Part shown: piece by piece, positions 363 through 8,924 of the stretch | How the letters are laid out: every line of letters starts with the position of its first letter | Position numbering within the stretch: the stretch's first letter is position 1 | Origin: Pseudothioclava arenosa | Lineage (GTDB): Bacteria; Pseudomonadota; Alphaproteobacteria; Rhodobacterales; Rhodobacteraceae | NCBI RefSeq assembly: GCF_002358085.1 | Contig: NZ_NTJD01000009.1 | Span: 1 to 64,000, forward strand | Length of the DNA: 64,000 nt | Direction: 5' to 3' | Made by a program: the position numbers and the translations under genes | Notes under the pieces: generated by a model | What the model was told of the DNA's origin: nothing | Seen by the model: the letters and a program-made list of their open reading frames with translations, nothing else | Database searches by the model: none

Positions 363-1169
363 TCAGGGCGCGTAGCGGCCAAGCGCGGCCTTCAGCGTCT
401 GCGCAAGAATATCGGCCTTGCCGCGCCAGCCCGCAATCTTGGTCGGGATCTTGCCCTGATCGGGATATCGGCGGCTCACCGGCACTTCGGCGATGCGATA
501 GCCCAGCTGCCCTGCCCGCACCGTCAGATAGAACAGCAGCTCGTAGCGCTGAAACAGGTCGCGAAAGGGAGCCACGCGCGGGTCAAGCAGGTAGCGCCGG
601 GAATAGGCGCGAAACCCGTTCGTCGTATCGGTCAGCCGCCGACGCGCGGCGAGGCTCAGGATCGGCGCATGGATCATCCGGTTGCCGAAACTGCGGTCGC
701 GCGGGGTGTTGATCGCCGCGCCCCCCGGCGCATAGCGCGAGCCCTGCACGTAATCGGCCCCCGCCTCCAGTGCCGCAAGGAACCGGCGCACATGGGTCAC
801 GTCATCCTTGCCATTCCCATCCATGGTGACGATCCCCGCATAGCCTTCTTGCAGGCACCAGGCATAGGCCATGCGCAGCTGAGCCCCGAGCTTGCCCGGC
901 CCGGTCTTGACCAGAAGCGCGCGCGCATCGCACTCGGCAAGGATCCCGCCATCCAGCGAGCCATCGCTGGAACCGCCATCGGCCATCACCAGATCGACGG
1001 GCAGCCCCGCCGCCGCGAAGGCCCGCAATTGCGCGCGGATCTTCTCGCCCTCGTTGATGACCGGGATCACCAGCGCATGCTCCGCGCGCTTCTCGCGAAA
1101 GACATGGGTGTCATGCGCCGGCACCTGCCAGCCCTGCTGCGCGGTCAGGTCTGAACCCTCGCTCATCAT
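363..1169 (-). CDS. Family 2 glycosyltransferase, GtrB / dolichol-phosphate-sugar synthase type
   Basis: The 268-residue protein has a GT-A fold signature: VIPVINEGEKI at about 34-44, ADGGSSDGS at 63-71, an acidic TMDGNGKDDV motif at 115-124 and QGSRYAPGG at 142-150. The family transfers a sugar from a nucleotide donor to a polyprenyl phosphate at the inner face of the membrane. Typical GtrB proteins carry C-terminal membrane segments; this one has none, so membrane contact may come from its partners. It is the last gene of a seven-gene minus-strand operon and its ATG overlaps the gtrA stop (ATGA). Donor and acceptor cannot be read from the sequence. A second ATG one codon on would serve equally well. 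Confidence 0.85.
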   Translation of the reverse strand: MMSEGSDLTAQQGWQVPAHDTHVFREKRAEHALVIPVINEGEKIRAQLRAFAAAGLPVDLVMADGGSSDGSLDGGILAECDARALLVKTGPGKLGAQLRMAYAWCLQEGYAGIVTMDGNGKDDVTHVRRFLAALEAGADYVQGSRYAPGGAAINTPRDRSFGNRMIHAPILSLAARRRLTDTTNGFRAYSRRYLLDPRVAPFRDLFQRYELLFYLTVRAGQLGYRIAEVPVSRRYPDQGKIPTKIAGWRGKADILAQTLKAALGRYAP

Positions 1170-1579
1170 TCCATCTCCTTCGGCACGCGCGGCGCGGTAA
1201 AGACAAGCCCCCGGCTCAGCGCGAAGTTCAACAGCATAGAGACGCCGCTGGCCAAAACGAGGATCGCCATGGGATACTCGGCGAGCAGGGCAAGGCGCGA
1301 CAGCGCCGCCACCGCCGCCAACCGCCCGACAAGGACGATCCCCAAGACAGCCAGATACTTGCCGAACCGCCGCCCCGACAGGCGCCCCGCGCCGCCGCCG
1401 AAGGTCCAGATCTCGTGCAGCAGGTAGTTGAACCCCGCCCCCGCCAGAAACCCGATCGCCGCGGCCAGCGCAAGCGGCGGCGCGAACAGGTGCAAGACCA
1501 GCCAGCTTGTCGCCAGATCGACACCCAGCCCCGCCAGCGTCACGATGAAAAACCGCCCGAATGCGGCGTACCCGGTCAT
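1166..1579 (-). CDS. GtrA-family membrane protein (putative polyprenyl-phosphate-sugar flippase)
   Basis: This 137-residue protein has four predicted membrane segments and the hallmark NYLLHEIWTF near residues 51-60, matching the N-x3-R/H-x-W-x-F signature of GtrA. GtrA proteins are thought to flip polyprenyl-linked sugars so that a periplasmic GT-C enzyme can use them. The start at 1579 was chosen because it overlaps the TGA of the preceding FAD gene as ATGA; upstream extensions add only low-complexity residues. The 3' end overlaps the GT2 gene by four bases, so gtrA and the GtrB-like gene look translationally coupled. Confidence 0.88.
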   Translation of the reverse strand: MTGYAAFGRFFIVTLAGLGVDLATSWLVLHLFAPPLALAAAIGFLAGAGFNYLLHEIWTFGGGAGRLSGRRFGKYLAVLGIVLVGRLAAVAALSRLALLAEYPMAILVLASGVSMLLNFALSRGLVFTAPRVPKEME

Positions 1580-2739
1580 CGCGCGCCCTCCGCCCCGGGC
1601 ACGAGCCAGCCCAGATGGGCCTCGCGGCACTCTGGCAACTCGCGGCGCAACAGGTCGAAGAGGTCATAGATGTTATCAATCTTGCCCCCCATGATGCTGA
1701 TTACGCGCGCCTGCGGGCCGGCGCGGTGAAACAGGATCGGGCGGCCATCATCAACCTCGGACTGGACCAGAAGCGTCTTGACCTCAAAAAGCGAGTCCAC
1801 CACCTCGGCCTCGGAGATGCAGGGCATGTAGCGCGCGCAATCATTGATCATGAAGCGCGATTTCGAAGGTTTCGCCGCCGCCGCCAGCGCGTCATAGGGC
1901 GAAACCGGCGCGTCGGCATCCATCCAGGACAGCTGCGGTGTATAGCGCACATGGGTCAGCGAATAGCAACCGCGCGCGGGATAAGGCATCGAAGAAAAGA
2001 ACGGCCCATCCATCACCGTGACCGCAGCGCCATTCATCCCCGGGGGCGGACGGATCAGAACCAGCTCGGTCACCTGATGGCGCAGCATCGCAGGCCGCAG
2101 CCCCGAGCGCCGCAACAGCGCGTTGATCTCGGCATAGGTCACGTTGAACCCGTAGCGCGCGCTGATCTCGGAGCCGTCGGAGAGCTGCGCCAGCACACCC
2201 TCGGGGCCGTCTTGATAGCGCTCGACCGTGGTACCAAAGCGCAGCTCGATCCCGGCGGCATCGAGCCGCGTTTCAAGGTGGCGCGCAAGCTTCGACCAGT
2301 CGAAGGCCGCCTCCTGGCACTCGAACACCGCCTCGATCATCTCATCCTCGAACAGGCGCGCATCCTCGGGGCGCACAGGCGTTATCGGCGCCCCCATTTC
2401 CTGATAGAACCGCAGGAACCGGCTGGCCGACACCTTGGAACCATGGCGCGCCACCGCGTAGAGCATGCGGAAATCATCGACCACGGCATCGGGAAAATCG
2501 CGCGCGAATTGCCGGCTCAGCAGTTTCGAGCGCACCGCCGTCAGCGCGCTCCGCGGATAGTGAAACCCGGTATGAATACGCGCCTGATTGACCTGCGAGG
2601 CGCGGGTCAACAGCCCATCGGATCGCTCGATCAGCAGGACACGCGCCCCGAGCGAGCGTAGAAAAAGCGCGAGGCAACACCCATAGAAACCGCCCCCGGC
2701 GACGAGGTAATCCACATCATGGCGTGGGGTCGCCGTCAT
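1576..2739 (-). CDS. FAD-dependent oxidoreductase (DAO family)
   Basis: The 387-residue protein opens with a Rossmann dinucleotide fold, VAGGGFYGCCLALFL at about 13-27, with an acidic residue at the end of the second strand (LIERS, E39) that would bind the FAD ribose. HTGFHYPRS near 56-64 and a GGKIDN segment near the C terminus fit the D-amino-acid-oxidase superfamily. The substrate is unknown. The gene sits in the glycosylation operon, with ATGA overlaps at both ends, between the two-TM glycosyltransferase-like gene and gtrA. A role in oxidising a sugar or a lipid-linked sugar is inference from context; amine oxidation is the main alternative. Confidence 0.8.
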   Translation of the reverse strand: MTATPRHDVDYLVAGGGFYGCCLALFLRSLGARVLLIERSDGLLTRASQVNQARIHTGFHYPRSALTAVRSKLLSRQFARDFPDAVVDDFRMLYAVARHGSKVSASRFLRFYQEMGAPITPVRPEDARLFEDEMIEAVFECQEAAFDWSKLARHLETRLDAAGIELRFGTTVERYQDGPEGVLAQLSDGSEISARYGFNVTYAEINALLRRSGLRPAMLRHQVTELVLIRPPPGMNGAAVTVMDGPFFSSMPYPARGCYSLTHVRYTPQLSWMDADAPVSPYDALAAAAKPSKSRFMINDCARYMPCISEAEVVDSLFEVKTLLVQSEVDDGRPILFHRAGPQARVISIMGGKIDNIYDLFDLLRRELPECREAHLGWLVPGAEGAR

Positions 2740-3728
2740 CTCCCGCTCTCGTCGCGGCTGTCGGCGCGCGCATCGCGTTCAACATTCAGCGCATCCTCCA
2801 GCTCGCGAAACAGTTCGAGCGAGCCGCGCTCCTGCACCATCAGGTCGTCGAAGGCCGGCACCAGCAGCTCGATCAGCCGGTTGATCCCCGAGGTGATCGC
2901 CATCAGCGCGATCCCGAGGAAACCCGTCGTGCCGCTGATCGCGAGCGAGGTGGTAAACCAGCCCTCGGCAGTGTCGCGCGTGAGGAAGATCACCACCGCA
3001 TAGATCGCGTAGATCAGCGCCATCACCACGACCACCACCGACAGATAGCCCACCCAGCGCAGCACCGAGGGCGCCGCCCCCGTCATCAGGCGCTCCAGCA
3101 GGAACAGCCTTTGCTTCAGGTCCTTGCGCAATGAAAGGCCGGTTCCCTGCGCCGCTATCTCGGTGTCGAGCAATGCGAAGGACGGGTTGATCGGCGGGAA
3201 GCGCAATGCGATCTCGCGCGAGGGATGGCGCAGGATCAGGCCCAGGATTTCCTTGGGAATGGCGATCGTGCGCAGCCGCGCCGCATCCACCCTGAACCCC
3301 GCCACGCGGCCAAGCCCGACGATGACCTTGTTCAGCGCCCCGCCCGTGCCGGAGCGAAAGCTGACCATCGAATTGCTGTCATTCGCATCCCGGATCATGC
3401 CCGGCAGGTCCAGCACAGGCAACTCGTCAAGCGAGGTCATCACCACCACATCGCCAATCGCACGGGTGGCCAGCGCATAGCGGCGCGCATAGGCCGTAGA
3501 GCTGTTCCCGCTCAGCCGGATCAAGCGCAGGTTGCGGATGTCCTGCAGCAGGCTGTCCTCGGCGCACCCCCGGCCATCGACACAGGCCACGAGGATCTCC
3601 CAAAACCGGTAGCGGCTGTCGATCTCGGCTGCGACCGCCTTCAGCGCGGCGGCGGAAGCCGGCGAATAGCTGAAATCGTCGAAACAGATCGAGACGAGGA
3701 TATCGCTGCGCAGGGAAGCATCACTCAT
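2736..3728 (-). CDS. Glycosyltransferase-like protein with two C-terminal membrane segments
   Basis: This 330-residue protein starts with a GT2-like strand (DILVSICFDDFS) and a CVDG turn. The middle has a SLDELP acidic segment where a GT-A enzyme would bind its metal and nucleotide sugar. Two hydrophobic segments follow at about 227-250 and 259-285, then a charged cytoplasmic-looking tail. That order (GT domain, two TM helices, tail) is common in polyprenyl-phosphate glycosyltransferases. The classic DxD is not obvious, so it could be a degenerate or regulatory GT. The start at 3728 overlaps the previous stop by eight bases. It is the second candidate glycosyltransferase in this operon. Confidence 0.55.
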   Translation of the reverse strand: MSDASLRSDILVSICFDDFSYSPASAAALKAVAAEIDSRYRFWEILVACVDGRGCAEDSLLQDIRNLRLIRLSGNSSTAYARRYALATRAIGDVVVMTSLDELPVLDLPGMIRDANDSNSMVSFRSGTGGALNKVIVGLGRVAGFRVDAARLRTIAIPKEILGLILRHPSREIALRFPPINPSFALLDTEIAAQGTGLSLRKDLKQRLFLLERLMTGAAPSVLRWVGYLSVVVVVMALIYAIYAVVIFLTRDTAEGWFTTSLAISGTTGFLGIALMAITSGINRLIELLVPAFDDLMVQERGSLELFRELEDALNVERDARADSRDESGR

Positions 3729-4557
3729 GGTTTTCCTCCAGGGCGTCGCCAAGCCGCCGCAGGCAGCCCGCAAGCACCGTCAACCCGGGGTCATCCGGGA
3801 CCATCCGCATCTCGATCGAGGTCGATCCCACCCAATTCACCGCCCGCAGCGCCGCCACAGCACGCGCCGCATGCGCCGCCGAGGCCGGTGCAGGCGCCAG
3901 CATCGGCTCGCTGATATGCACATGCGAGACCCGGCCGATGCAGTCGCTCAGATCAAGCCCCTCGATCTCGCCGCTCAGCCAAAGCGTCCCGAAATCGAGG
4001 TTCAGCGTCAGCGCCGGGTGGTCGATCCGGTCGAGAAAACGAGTGGTGTCCTCCAGCGTGGTCAGGAAATTCGTGCCGTACTCCCTGGCATTAGGTTCAA
4101 GCGCGATCTTGCACCCCTCGGCAAGTGCCAGATCGGCCAGTGCCGCAAGCGTCTCGGCGGCGATCCCTTCTGCGACGTCGGCACTCATCCCAGACGGCAC
4201 CACGCGCTGGCGCGGCGACCCGAAGACAATATTGGGAATAGCCAGCATCCCGGCGAGCCGGATCGCGCGTTCCATTCCCTCGACAAGTCGCTGACGCTCG
4301 GCGGCCGTCTCGAACAGCGCCACCCCCTCAACCCCGAACAGCGGCGCCTGCAGAGACACCAGATCAAGCCCAAATGCCGCTATCTCGGCGCGGCGGGCCG
4401 CAACCTCGGCGGGCGCAGGACAGAACGGGTCGTCGAGCGACGCCAGAAACAGGTTCGGGGCGATTTCCAGCCCGCCAAACCCGGCCTCGGCCAGCAGTCG
4501 ATAGGCCTCCAGCCGCTGCGCCGGGTTCCAGGCAATGTTGGACGCGGCCAGCTTCAT
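3721..4557 (-). CDS. Sugar phosphate isomerase/epimerase-like TIM-barrel protein
   Basis: The 278-residue protein shows the AP-endonuclease-2/xylose-isomerase-like barrel: KLAASNIAW at the start, GFGGLEIAPN near 29-38, a CKIALEPN strand-loop with a conserved Glu, LNLDFGTLWL, and SHVHISEP near 210. The E, D and H residues in these loops would bind a divalent metal. Family members isomerise or epimerise sugars, inososes or hydroxypyruvate. The ATG at 4557 was preferred over a GTG two codons upstream because it overlaps the previous TGA as ATGA. The neighbourhood suggests it helps make the sugar donor for the operon's glycosyltransferases. Confidence 0.78.
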   Translation of the reverse strand: MKLAASNIAWNPAQRLEAYRLLAEAGFGGLEIAPNLFLASLDDPFCPAPAEVAARRAEIAAFGLDLVSLQAPLFGVEGVALFETAAERQRLVEGMERAIRLAGMLAIPNIVFGSPRQRVVPSGMSADVAEGIAAETLAALADLALAEGCKIALEPNAREYGTNFLTTLEDTTRFLDRIDHPALTLNLDFGTLWLSGEIEGLDLSDCIGRVSHVHISEPMLAPAPASAAHAARAVAALRAVNWVGSTSIEMRMVPDDPGLTVLAGCLRRLGDALEENHE

Positions 4558-5510
4558 ATCCACCCCCCATCCCGATACCAGCGCGCGATATCCGCGATCA
4601 CCGCCTCACGGCCTCGCAGATAGGGTGCTGCACCACCGAAGACCCCCGCATGACGGGTGTGAAAATCCTCGCGATGGAGCTTGGCCCCTGTCTCGGGCAT
4701 CTCGCGCCCCAGAAGCCGAAGGTGCACCTCGGCGGCCGAGACCGGCTCGGTCGCGACATGCAACGTCTCAACCCCTGCCTCAAGGGCGCGCGCGATCACC
4801 TCTGACAGGCCCGCGAGCCCGAAATACTGAAACCGGCTGTCCCGATGGGTGAATTGCAGCGCCGTGCGTCCAAGCGCGACCAAAGCTGTCTCGATCGCCG
4901 CGCGCTCTGGCCTGGCATTCAGCATGGCTCGGTCAAGGACATGCATCCCGATCCCGTCCTGCCAGCTCAGACACGACGCCAGCGCCGCGAAGGGGGGCGC
5001 CGGCATCGTCGCAGACAGCGCGTCGAACGCCTGCGCCGTCAGCATCGAGGGCACCGGGTTGGCGAGATCGAAAAGGAAATTCTTCTTCAGCCCCGCCCCG
5101 TACAGGGCCGGCAGCCGCAAGATCAGCGCGCCGGGAAATCGCGCCTGGCAGAAGGCTTCGAGGTGGCGGCGGTGACAACCATAGGCCAGATCCTCCTGAA
5201 AGCCCGTACTTGTCTCGTCATCGCCCGCATCGAACTGCGCGAGCACGGCGATGGTCGAGATCAGCACGAAGCGGCGAGCGGAGAGGGTTTCAAGATGCCC
5301 GATCAAATTCTCGATCGCGGCCCTGTCAGCCTCGGGCGCGCGATTGGCGGCAACCATCGAGCCCGGCGCCGCCGCACAAACCACCGTGTCAAAACGCCCG
5401 CCGCGCATCTGCGCGATCGTGGCCGAGTTGCACTGCGCGGCAAATCCCCGACTGCGCAAGAGATTGGTCCCGACGAACCCCGTCGATCCGATCAGCAGAT
5501 CGCCCGCCAT
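4554..5510 (-). CDS. NAD-dependent epimerase/dehydratase-like protein (extended SDR) with an altered catalytic motif
   Basis: The 318-residue protein begins with a Rossmann motif, LIGSTGFVGTNLL at about 6-18, and has a conserved VCAAAPGSMVAANRAP loop and an LISTIAV strand with the expected Ser. The catalytic motif reads YGCHRRHLE, so the Lys of YxxxK is Arg here. It may be a reductase or epimerase with shifted activity, or it may bind without turnover. Extended SDRs act on nucleotide sugars, which suits its place in the glycosylation operon. It starts four bases after the GT-C gene stop and overlaps the TIM-barrel gene by four bases. Confidence 0.75.
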   Translation of the reverse strand: MAGDLLIGSTGFVGTNLLRSRGFAAQCNSATIAQMRGGRFDTVVCAAAPGSMVAANRAPEADRAAIENLIGHLETLSARRFVLISTIAVLAQFDAGDDETSTGFQEDLAYGCHRRHLEAFCQARFPGALILRLPALYGAGLKKNFLFDLANPVPSMLTAQAFDALSATMPAPPFAALASCLSWQDGIGMHVLDRAMLNARPERAAIETALVALGRTALQFTHRDSRFQYFGLAGLSEVIARALEAGVETLHVATEPVSAAEVHLRLLGREMPETGAKLHREDFHTRHAGVFGGAAPYLRGREAVIADIARWYRDGGWI

Positions 5511-5514
5511 TCGC

Positions 5515-7059
5515 CTAATCCCCTTCGCGCTCGCACAGATAGATCATGATCGCTCCGACCTCGGTTTCCTCTTCACAATCCCACCCGTGCTTGAAGGCGG
5601 TTTCAAGGAAAACCAAAGGCTTTGTGCCCCAATGGTGCGATAAAATCATGCGCGCCCGATCATAGGGACGCATATCCTCGACGAAACGCATCGGATAGTC
5701 GTCGCGGATTTCGCCTTCTTCGTCACGCGCGCCACCCCGCACCGTCCAACTGGTGTAATCGCTCTCACGCCCGACAACCCCATGCACCGGCGCGCCCTGC
5801 CAGTTGGCGAAATCGAAGGTCGGCTGAGAGGCGAAGCTGATCCAGACCGGCAGCACTCCCTCCTCGTTCTCATCGGATGTGAGATAGGCCATCGCCACCA
5901 TGTCTTCGCCGCGCGGACGAAACATTCCGTTCAGGATGCCATCAAGGCCGAACACCAGCAACAGCACCACCGCCCATCGCGGAAACCGCGGCCAGCGCGA
6001 CAGAAACCGGAGCACAAGCAGCGCAATCAAAGTCAGCGTGAAGGGCTGAAGAAAACTGAAATGGCGTTCATAGGGGATCGGCAGCGCGCCCAGTGCATTC
6101 AGGACCATCGTGCCAAGCAGGGTCATCCCGCAGGCAAGCGCCACGAAGCGCAGCGTGCCCCCGCGCCGAAAGCCCATGAACAAAAACAACAGGATCGCGA
6201 AATTGAACAGGAAAAAGGCAAAGACCGGCGCGCCGTTACTGGCCAATGTGTCGAGGACCCGGTTCGAAACCGAGAACAGAACAAGGCGCAGAAACTCGCT
6301 CCCGGTCACCGCAAGGTCCCCCCCGGCGAAGAGATGTTTCTGGTAGACCTCGGGGTAGGCCGTCAGTTGATAGATCGCGGTCGGATCCACCAACAGGCGC
6401 TTGTAGATCAGGAAATATCCGGCCAGCCCGAGGCCCGTGAGCGCCACGCGCACAAGGGCGCCCTTGCGCCCGGCCCTCTCGCGCTCAAGCGCGAGATAGA
6501 TAAAAACCGCCGCCAGCGTGCCCATCGCGCTGATGATCGAGACGAAAGAGAACAGGGTGCCCGCAAGACAGATTGCGACGAAGGCACTCAGGCGTCCGAC
6601 CGTCGGCCCTTGGGTCAGGCGATATCCCGATGCCAGGATCGCCGCGCTGACAAAGGCGTCGAACATGTAATGCTTGGCCTGAGTCACCTGGTTCATAAGG
6701 AGCGGCGCCATCAGGATCAGCGCCAGAACCACCAGAGGAAACTCTGGTCTGCCCTCCGGCCGGAAGCTCTGCGCCAGGATCAGCACAAGCCCCAGATAGG
6801 CGCCAAGGGAAACCAGCTTGAGTCCGGGATAGACAGCCTCAAACCCGAAGAGATCGCGGATCAACAACCCCAGAGCAAGTTGCCCGGGCGGCGCGACCTG
6901 ATCGTAATAGGGCAGCGGGCGCCCGACATCCGTCCAGCCGATATCGCGCAGGTTCACCAGCAGCATCGACTCGTCAAGCCACGGCGTCCGTCCCGCCAGA
7001 GCAAAGAGCAGGATCGAAACCAGCAGCAAAAGATAGAACAAACGATTTTCGAAAGACAT
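5515..7059 (-). CDS. Multi-pass membrane glycosyltransferase, GT-C / ArnT-PMT-like
   Basis: About 514 residues with roughly ten to twelve hydrophobic segments and a soluble C-terminal domain. The first extracytoplasmic loop carries GRTPWLDES, with the Asp-Glu pair (D29, E30) expected for GT-C enzymes that use polyprenyl-phosphate sugars as donors. It is the first gene of the operon and would be the periplasmic transferase of a GtrA/GtrB/GtrC-like set. The ATG at 7059 gives the expected short cytoplasmic N terminus; an in-frame TTG nine codons upstream (7084-7086) is an alternative, and neither has a strong ribosome binding site. Acceptor unknown. The 183 bases upstream contain two TTAACC elements in an AT-rich stretch but no clear promoter. 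Confidence 0.8.
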   Translation of the reverse strand: MSFENRLFYLLLLVSILLFALAGRTPWLDESMLLVNLRDIGWTDVGRPLPYYDQVAPPGQLALGLLIRDLFGFEAVYPGLKLVSLGAYLGLVLILAQSFRPEGRPEFPLVVLALILMAPLLMNQVTQAKHYMFDAFVSAAILASGYRLTQGPTVGRLSAFVAICLAGTLFSFVSIISAMGTLAAVFIYLALERERAGRKGALVRVALTGLGLAGYFLIYKRLLVDPTAIYQLTAYPEVYQKHLFAGGDLAVTGSEFLRLVLFSVSNRVLDTLASNGAPVFAFFLFNFAILLFLFMGFRRGGTLRFVALACGMTLLGTMVLNALGALPIPYERHFSFLQPFTLTLIALLVLRFLSRWPRFPRWAVVLLLVFGLDGILNGMFRPRGEDMVAMAYLTSDENEEGVLPVWISFASQPTFDFANWQGAPVHGVVGRESDYTSWTVRGGARDEEGEIRDDYPMRFVEDMRPYDRARMILSHHWGTKPLVFLETAFKHGWDCEEETEVGAIMIYLCEREGD

Positions 7060-7242: not shown

Positions 7243-8853
7243 CTAGCGCGCCCAATCCAGCCGGATATCGTGGCGGTAGCGGTATTCGGGCGGCAGTGTG
7301 GGCGCGGTGGCCTCGTCGATCCCGGCATGGACATTCGCGGGCGGGGTCACCGTCGCGTCGCGGCCAAAAACAAAGCTCTGCTCCGCGACCAGCACCCGGT
7401 AGGCCTTGTTCAGCATCAGCGCACGCTCAGCCGAAGGCGCGATCAGCTCATAGACCGTCTTGCCCGCCAATGCCGCGTGGTCGACCTGCCCGGCGGGCGT
7501 GAACCAGCGCGCGCGCATCTCGGTGTTGGAGCGGAACTCATCACCGCCGCCCGCGCGCTGCAGGTATTGCGCGATCTCGCCCATCGCCTCGCCGCGATTG
7601 GGCACGTCGCGCTGCACGTGCAGGTCGATATAGCCCCAGCCCTCAGCGCCCGTCAGCTTGCGCGGAAAGGCCCAGGTCTGGTCGATATTCGCGCCGACCG
7701 AGGCATGGCAGCCGCGGCAAAAGAACAGCTCTTCGTTGGTCTGGCGGCGCAGCGCGCCCGAGGCGTCCTCGATAAAGGCCAGAAGCGTCCAGCCCTGCCC
7801 GTTATCCATCCCCTTGTCGCCCAGATCGAGGTAACGCGGCAGGTTTTCGTCCATCTTTTCCTGACGCTCGTTGCCATAGCGCGAGGCAATCTGCGGGATC
7901 GAGAGCGCGCGGGTCTTGACCATGTAGCGCAGCTCTTTCATGCGCCGCGCAACGGTGATGGCGCCCTGCGGATCGACCCCGACATAGCGCACCGAATGCA
8001 GGAACTCGGTGCCCTCGGGATAGAGCATCCGCGTCACCGGCTTATCGGCAGCGCCCCCCAGATAACTGGCGCGAGCGAGCACCCTGCCCGCCTGCCCCAG
8101 CGTGCCGTCGCCATCCAGATCGACGCCGATCGCCGCCTCGTCGAGGGGCGGCACGGTGACCTCGGGCAGGTCCTGAAACGCCATCTCCAGAAGCGCGAGA
8201 TTGGCGAAATAGAGGTCTTCGCTCGGGCGCCCGTCGGACAACGTGTAAAACGGCGCGGGCAGCCGGATCAGCACATCGTCAGTCGAGCCGTTGGTCGGCC
8301 AGAAGGTCGAGGGCTGCGGCTTGTAATTGAAAGCGACCCACCACGAGCCATCCAGGGCCAGACCACGCGCATCGAAGGCCGCCGCGCCCTCGGCGTAACC
8401 GGCCAGATCGGGCACCCAACCGCCGAACCCCTCGGCCGCGAGTCGCGGCGCGAGACCGCTGTAATTGTCCTGCCCGATCCAGTCGCGGATCTCGGCATCG
8501 GAAATCGCCGCGACCTCGGCCGAGCGGTCGATGAAAAGATTGACGTGGTGATTGGTCAGGCCCGCTTCGGAAAAGGCATATTCCGCCTGCAACCCGCCAT
8601 CGAGCATGAAATTCGGGCGCGTGGCGTCCTCGTTGGTCTGGTGGCAGACATAGCAGGGATTAAAGCGGCCCTCGATGCGGGTGTAGCATTGCGGCGGGAT
8701 CGGCGCCTCTGGGTTATAACGCCGACCGGCGGCGACAAGCGCCTCGGAGGCGGGGCGCAGCGCGCGCAGCGCGGCGCCATCAAGGCTGGACAGATCCTGC
8801 GCGAAGCCGGTGGCCGGCAGGGTCAGGGCGAGGCAAAGGGCAAGGCGGCGCAT
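7243..8853 (-). CDS. Exported protein with two CXXCH haem-binding motifs
   Basis: This 536-residue protein starts with a Sec signal peptide (MRRLALCLALTLPATGFAQ) and has two c-type haem motifs, CYVCH at about 67-71 and CRGCH at 379-383, so it is probably a periplasmic dihaem cytochrome-like protein. I do not recognise the family. It lies 71 bases after the PhoX-like gene on the same strand, with AGGAG before its ATG and a stem-loop between the two. The pairing suggests co-expression under phosphate limitation, but no electron-transfer role for a PhoX partner follows from the sequence. The start at 8853 was chosen for its signal peptide; an upstream extension adds unlikely residues. Confidence 0.75.
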   Translation of the reverse strand: MRRLALCLALTLPATGFAQDLSSLDGAALRALRPASEALVAAGRRYNPEAPIPPQCYTRIEGRFNPCYVCHQTNEDATRPNFMLDGGLQAEYAFSEAGLTNHHVNLFIDRSAEVAAISDAEIRDWIGQDNYSGLAPRLAAEGFGGWVPDLAGYAEGAAAFDARGLALDGSWWVAFNYKPQPSTFWPTNGSTDDVLIRLPAPFYTLSDGRPSEDLYFANLALLEMAFQDLPEVTVPPLDEAAIGVDLDGDGTLGQAGRVLARASYLGGAADKPVTRMLYPEGTEFLHSVRYVGVDPQGAITVARRMKELRYMVKTRALSIPQIASRYGNERQEKMDENLPRYLDLGDKGMDNGQGWTLLAFIEDASGALRRQTNEELFFCRGCHASVGANIDQTWAFPRKLTGAEGWGYIDLHVQRDVPNRGEAMGEIAQYLQRAGGGDEFRSNTEMRARWFTPAGQVDHAALAGKTVYELIAPSAERALMLNKAYRVLVAEQSFVFGRDATVTPPANVHAGIDEATAPTLPPEYRYRHDIRLDWAR

Positions 8854-8873
8854 CGGGGTCTCCTGTTCATATG

Positions 8874-8900
8874 GAAAGGGCGGCGCGATGCCGCCCTTTC
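8874..8900 (-). terminator. Intercistronic stem-loop between phoX-like and haem protein genes
   Basis: A perfect 11-bp stem (GAAAGGGCGGC paired with GCCGCCCTTTC) with a five-base loop lies in the 71-base gap, just before the ribosome binding site of the downstream gene. There is no long U-run after it. It could be a partial terminator or an mRNA-stabilising structure that lowers expression of the second gene relative to the first. Confidence 0.5.
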
Positions 8901-8924
8901 GCATGGGTCATGGCCGGAGCCGGA

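Follow-up and report, generated by a model that had tools for sequence, protein, structure and literature searches.

The operon described here lies on the minus strand, from position 7059 to position 363 of the window, by which we mean the whole stretch of DNA that was analysed (positions 1-64,000, the start of contig C25 in an assembly of 2.79 Mb). The earlier note had proposed seven genes on one strand, with gaps or overlaps of a few bases, and this description holds: all seven co-directional ORFs were found in that order, with the products listed in Table 1. Five of the six junctions overlap by 4-8 nt (SDR/TIM, TIM/two-TM, two-TM/FAD, FAD/GtrA, and GtrA/GT2), and a 4-nt gap separates the GT-C-like gene from the SDR gene. 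These seven genes form a genuine operon. Five of the seven proteins pass the curated Pfam cut-offs (Epimerase, AP_endonuc_2, DAO, GtrA_DPMS_TM, and Glycos_transf_2), and in the same search of the window proteins, no Pfam family rose above its cut-off for the GT-C-like and two-TM proteins. The Pfam search of the seven proteins also found no nucleotidyltransferase, aminotransferase, or dehydratase in the operon.

Table 1. Genes of the operon, in the order of transcription, with the function presumed for each product.
Product	Positions	Strand	Presumed function and basis
GT-C-like polytopic membrane protein, 514 aa	5515-7059	-	Presumed final transferase; topology and W-x-D-E loop
Extended SDR, 318 aa	4554-5510	-	Presumed keto-sugar reductase; Pfam Epimerase; YxxxR, not YxxxK
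Xylose-isomerase-like TIM barrel, 278 aa	3721-4557	-	Presumed keto-sugar epimerase; Pfam AP_endonuc_2 2e-20
GtrB/ArnC-fold GT2 with two C-terminal TM helices (two-TM protein), 330 aa	2736-3728	-	Presumed platform for lipid-linked sugar; DxD lost
DAO-superfamily FAD oxidoreductase, 387 aa	1576-2739	-	Presumed secondary-alcohol sugar oxidase; Pfam DAO 2e-19
GtrA-family membrane protein, 137 aa	1166-1579	-	Presumed exporter or membrane part of the synthase; Pfam GtrA_DPMS_TM 4e-16
Soluble GT2, AglJ/PpgS/DPMS neighbourhood, 268 aa	363-1169	-	Presumed polyprenyl-phosphate sugar synthase; Pfam Glycos_transf_2

The operon is accessory. It begins beside a gene for a secreted-looking protein with CxxCH motifs (7243-8904; CYVCH and CRGCH), which is 77% conserved in G001, a genome of the same genus. 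The upstream neighbours as a group are conserved in that genome at 77-81%, synteny stops at window position 7251, and other genes are found beyond this point. Strict vertical inheritance is unlikely, given that the FAD gene occurs in only 7 of the 295 genomes of the family and the two-TM gene in one other genome of 101. In Ruegeria, Sagittula, and Sphingomonas, the operon's relatives on plasmids sit among exopolysaccharide genes, and further plasmid copies are carried by Cereibacter sphaeroides and Roseobacter litoralis. We rejected a phage serotype-conversion cassette because no more than two viral contigs, besides one short phage record, carry a relative of the FAD gene. At the opposite end of the operon, positions 1-147 of the minus strand hold a partial IS3-type OrfA, as the earlier note had seen when it placed the locus next to an IS element, although this is a contig-end fragment that need not be linked to the locus. 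Next to it, positions 217-333 of the plus strand encode the C-terminal 38 residues of a different protein (SKGTLRRALKYADGMPEFDLSYAEISALHAYLNTLNH), apparently the end of a gene that the insertion truncated.

For the comparison across genomes, 80 loci were drawn from GTDB genomes by similarity to the FAD protein alone, and the profiles of the remaining families were run against all ORFs of these loci. The scan with the FAD protein gave at least 597 candidate stretches and at least 579 confirmed relatives, and the system is thus common. All five core genes (two-TM, FAD, SDR, TIM, and soluble GT2) were found nearby in 70 of the 80 FAD-selected loci, in eight phyla, which rules out a chance cluster or a local novelty; taken family by family, the same FAD-selected loci contain the two-TM gene in 78 cases, GT2 in 75, TIM in 74, and SDR in 72. 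The loci with all five, several of which are MAGs, come from alpha-, beta-, and gammaproteobacteria, Desulfovibrionaceae, Leptolyngbya, and Paenibacillus, as well as from Chloroflexota, Planctomycetota, Verrucomicrobiota, and Acidobacteriota, so the five-gene core recurs in many unrelated phyla. Gene order had been set beforehand by the earlier note as one point on which its proposal should be judged, and the order does recur: SDR-TIM-2TM-FAD-GtrA-GT2, the arrangement of the window, is the commonest and is exact in 19 of the 56 loci with long flanks, among which 2TM-FAD-SDR-TIM-GT2 and SDR-TIM-2TM-GT2-FAD-GtrA are also seen. The pairwise identities of the different families correlate (r 0.56-0.93), and as shared host ancestry contributes to this, the correlation serves as support only. 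A variant was found in two Pseudomonas loci (L075:6973-11212 and L077:6961-11199), in which two-TM, FAD, GT2, and GtrA genes are accompanied by an aldo/keto reductase that occupies the place of the missing SDR and TIM genes.

The genes around this core are more changeable. Near the FAD gene, the exporter-type gene is GtrA in 39 of the 80 loci, SMR/EamA in 22, and both in 2, and neither a GtrA nor an SMR gene was found nearby in 21 of the 80 FAD-selected loci; the GtrA protein of the window is a clear family member (PF04138, 59.6 bits against a cut-off of 26.1). Proteins of both types are known, or have been proposed, to export polyprenyl-phosphate sugars (PMC11127046). Some polytopic protein is encoded nearby in 62 of the 80 loci, whereas relatives of the GT-C-like protein of the window occur in only 12 of them, and the position of its gene varies, being upstream in the window and in L028 and downstream of GT2 elsewhere. 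Three residues after its first helix (W27, D29, and E30) are invariant among 7 relatives, and we presume from the topology and this W-x-D-E loop that the first gene product is a GT-C. The GT-C membrane enzyme named in the earlier note is thus a putative one: the protein matches no Pfam model, an hhalign comparison with a PMT_2 protein gave no match, and the protein did not match an ArnT/PMT model either. From the exporter swap and the variable large membrane protein, it follows that the system is a conserved donor-making core with a changeable exporter and a changeable final transferase.

The core encodes two proteins of the GT2 fold, and it is the soluble one that most likely forms, together with GtrA, the working polyprenyl-phosphate sugar synthase. 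This assignment rests on the family neighbourhood of the GT2 and on a fusion. The protein exceeds the Pfam cut-off for Glycos_transf_2 (27.1 bits against 23.3), falls under the NCBIfam cut-offs for AglJ (45.8 bits against 325) and PpgS (33.9 against 370), and is nearest to AglJ, haloarchaeal dolichyl-phosphate hexose transferases, and PpgS. Its DGGSxD and DGNGKD stretches are invariant in 30 sequences, with D-G-N in place of DxD in all 30 aligned members, and it is better conserved than the two-TM protein, at 48-66% identity to the window copy. In a Glaciecola MAG, GtrA and the soluble GT2 are fused into one chain of 418 aa (L029:9147-10403). Pyrococcus DPMS has the same two parts in the opposite order, and the soluble GT2 and GtrA look like a split synthase of the dolichol-phosphate-mannose type.

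The earlier note had called this last gene GtrB-like, and here it was mistaken, as the relative of GtrB and ArnC is the two-TM protein. The profile of the two-TM family matches GtrB of Synechocystis (5ekp, 8.7e-32) and, as second-best PDB match, ArnC (1.5e-28) along the full chain, including the TM pair. The metal motif, however, has been lost: the window has S-L-D at the DxD position, and DxD is present in only 4 of 81 copies, two of which are low-scoring neighbours from other clusters; it stands at the motif position in two Caulobacteraceae copies. The DDGSxD-type stretch is eroded in most alphaproteobacterial copies and retained in gammaproteobacterial and some other ones. Two active synthases of the GtrB type are therefore unlikely, and of the two glycosyltransferases claimed earlier, both are present as GT2 folds, but one may be a pseudo-glycosyltransferase beside a single synthase. 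After the two helices, a C-terminal Asn-Val is nearly always present (N315 invariant, V316 in 90% or more), which hints at a docking tail. In 63 of the 80 loci, the two-TM and FAD genes share a strand and are no more than 60 bp apart; in 15, the two are not adjacent.

The remaining three core proteins appear to be sugar enzymes. For the FAD enzyme, the family profile matches GlpO (1.1e-08) and the L2HGDH-like 3dme (2.9e-06), with the HxG motif aligned, and the model (pLDDT 92) has its best fold match in GlpD (Z 31.3, rmsd 3.2, 357 aligned residues). Glycine oxidase is also close (Z 29.3), and the DAO fold therefore cannot separate hydroxyl from amine substrates; from the sequence and the model, we presume that the protein is an oxidase of a secondary alcohol of a sugar. 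DprE1 is a VAO-type flavoprotein, and a flavoprotein of that type was discarded here, as both Pfam and the fold identify the FAD enzyme as DAO. A relative of the FAD enzyme with 45% identity was also observed on a contig labelled viral in IMG/VR (L087:8001-9098).

The TIM barrel scores 73.7 bits with PF01261, and its metal-type residues (E156, D190, H216, and E251) are invariant in 29 sequences. Its family profile is nearest to IolO (2zvr) and ketose 3-epimerases, the best match of the single sequence is a 3-keto-D-glucoside 4-epimerase (6wn6), and its score with the IolO equivalog (41.7 bits) is below the cut-off of 300; it is presumably a metal-dependent keto-sugar epimerase. Its start is likelier to be the ATG at 4557 than the GTG at 4563, because relatives begin MKLAVSNIAW. 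The SDR has a Rossmann fold with G8, G11, and G14 (GxxGxxG) invariant in 44 sequences, an invariant Y110, and R114 in place of the catalytic Lys of YxxxK in 44 of 44 sequences. Its model (pLDDT 97) matches the folds of GalE, RmlD, and MoeE5 (Z about 22), which act on nucleotide sugars and not on lipid-linked ones, and we presume it to be a keto-sugar reductase. In the structure comparison that the earlier note had proposed for predicting substrates, the SDR showed a keto-sugar reductase/epimerase fold, and hydroxyl and amine substrates stayed unseparated for the FAD enzyme. That an oxidase, an epimerase, and a reductase are encoded together suggests that the configuration of a sugar is changed by redox chemistry.

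Starting from what was observed directly, namely the gene set, its order and conservation, the family or fold to which six of the seven proteins belong, the motifs kept and lost, the exporter swap, and the GtrA-GT2 fusion, we infer, with good support, that the sugar is delivered on polyprenyl phosphate; the product of the operon is probably an uncommon sugar, built on a membrane lipid and handed on to the cell surface. As a tentative reading, whose chances we place just short of even, it would be a surface glycosylation system of the three-component Gtr type, extended by enzymes with which it prepares an unusual sugar of its own, as follows. The soluble GT2 and GtrA would load polyprenyl phosphate with a common hexose taken from a nucleotide sugar; the FAD enzyme would then turn a secondary hydroxyl of the lipid-linked sugar into a ketone, the metal-dependent TIM barrel would invert a carbon beside it, and the SDR would reduce the ketone, so that the sugar ends in a different configuration. 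Meanwhile, the two-TM protein, with a GtrB fold and anchor and without the metal motif, may keep the lipid-linked sugar within reach of the soluble enzymes. Judging from their families, GtrA, or SMR/EamA in other lineages, would carry the lipid-linked sugar across the membrane, where the lineage-specific GT-C-like protein would attach it to a surface glycan. The GtrB-like partner beside the FAD gene, together with precedents (PMC11127046; DprE1/E2), suggests that the remodelling may take place on the lipid. The boldest form of this proposal, a widespread pathway in which an oxidise-epimerise-reduce trio alters the configuration of the sugar on polyprenyl phosphate, anchored at the membrane by a GtrB-fold protein turned non-catalytic platform, is somewhat unlikely.

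The strongest competitor, doubtful though a serious contender, is that the SDR, TIM, and FAD enzymes do their work first and in the cytoplasm, on a nucleotide sugar or sugar phosphate, after which GT2 loads the finished sugar on polyprenyl phosphate; the two-TM protein would be a second, unusual synthase or a relic. The nucleotide-sugar enzymes nearest to the SDR model would fit this order of events. In four loci (L020, L042, L047, and L053), moreover, there are two divergent gene groups, with SDR and TIM (and GT2 in some) apart from two-TM and FAD, which would allow each module its own stage of action, and in some lineages, the two-TM protein has kept one Asp together with its DDGS-type stretch. 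A relic, however, would hardly be retained in 78 of 80 loci despite the loss of its motif, no nucleotidyltransferase travels with the core, and the published epimerases of such systems work after lipid transfer (PMC11127046).

It is distinctly less probable that the extra enzymes make a keto sugar, a sugar acid, a cyclitol, or a branched sugar without any inversion and hand it to the same export machinery. The breadth of the DAO fold, which includes amine and hydroxy substrates, leaves room for such a product, as do the weak scores of the TIM protein with hydroxypyruvate isomerase and inosose dehydratase models and the atypical YxxxR of the SDR; yet epimerases, not dehydratases, are the closer matches of the TIM profile, and a redox-neutral route is the simplest account of an oxidase, an epimerase, and a reductase occurring together. 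Finally, an Arn- or Rgt-type modification of lipid A or core (the addition of L-Ara4N or galacturonic acid) would account for the ArnC match of the two-TM family and for the SMR/EamA exporters, which occur in Arn systems, but it is very improbable, as no relative of ArnA, ArnB, or ArnD is found among the seven proteins, the first gene lacks an ArnT/PMT model match, and the core is also conserved in Paenibacillus, which has no lipid A.

The earlier note knew of no description of this gene set, and we likewise found none in the open-access papers searched; as far as those papers show, the conservation of the five core genes, the exchange of one exporter type for another, and the loss of the metal motif in the two-TM protein are new. 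If the preferred Gtr-type reading is true, the core would provide a general route to rare surface-glycan sugars without a dedicated nucleotide-sugar pathway, common to distant phyla and borne on plasmids. With five co-conserved genes named, the product can be sought directly, and the idea that a glycosyltransferase fold has become a scaffold can be put to the test in the two-TM protein.

Among known systems, the closest frame is that of the three-component Gtr systems (GtrA, GtrB, and GtrC/Gtr*), which decorate O-antigen and cell-wall polymers. The operon shares with them GtrA, a GtrB fold with two C-terminal TM helices, and a variable large membrane protein, that is, a constant donor part and a changing acceptor-specific enzyme. 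In contrast to these systems, the core adds three sugar enzymes and a second, soluble GT2, its GtrB-fold protein is without DxD in nearly all copies, and SMR/EamA may replace GtrA. The earlier proposal of Gtr-like delivery with extra sugar enzymes survives in outline, with its assignment of the GtrB role corrected; the gene order is conserved, and relatives lie in surface-polysaccharide clusters. The synthase itself is reminiscent of AglJ, PpgS, and the dolichol-phosphate-mannose synthases, with a soluble GT2 domain and a GtrA-type membrane domain that are fused in the Glaciecola chain, although the GT2 lies far below the NCBIfam cut-offs and carries D-G-N for DxD in the 30 aligned members.

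For the remodelling enzymes, the mycobacterial decaprenyl-phosphate arabinose pathway (DprE1/DprE2) offers the idea of a flavoprotein and an SDR that together invert a lipid-linked sugar, whereas the operon has a DAO-fold flavoprotein, an added TIM epimerase, and a GT2 synthase. The Actinoplanes gsf cluster has a different gene set. A further parallel is the three-component pentofuranose system of Citrobacter youngae O1/O2 (GT136), which starts from PRPP and uses a phosphoribose synthase, a MATE exporter, and one SDR epimerase (PMC11127046). There, as proposed here, an epimerase is encoded with a lipid-linked donor system, and the exported sugar is altered before transfer (PMC11127046); the operon differs in having a GT2 synthase and in conserving FAD, TIM, and SDR enzymes together.
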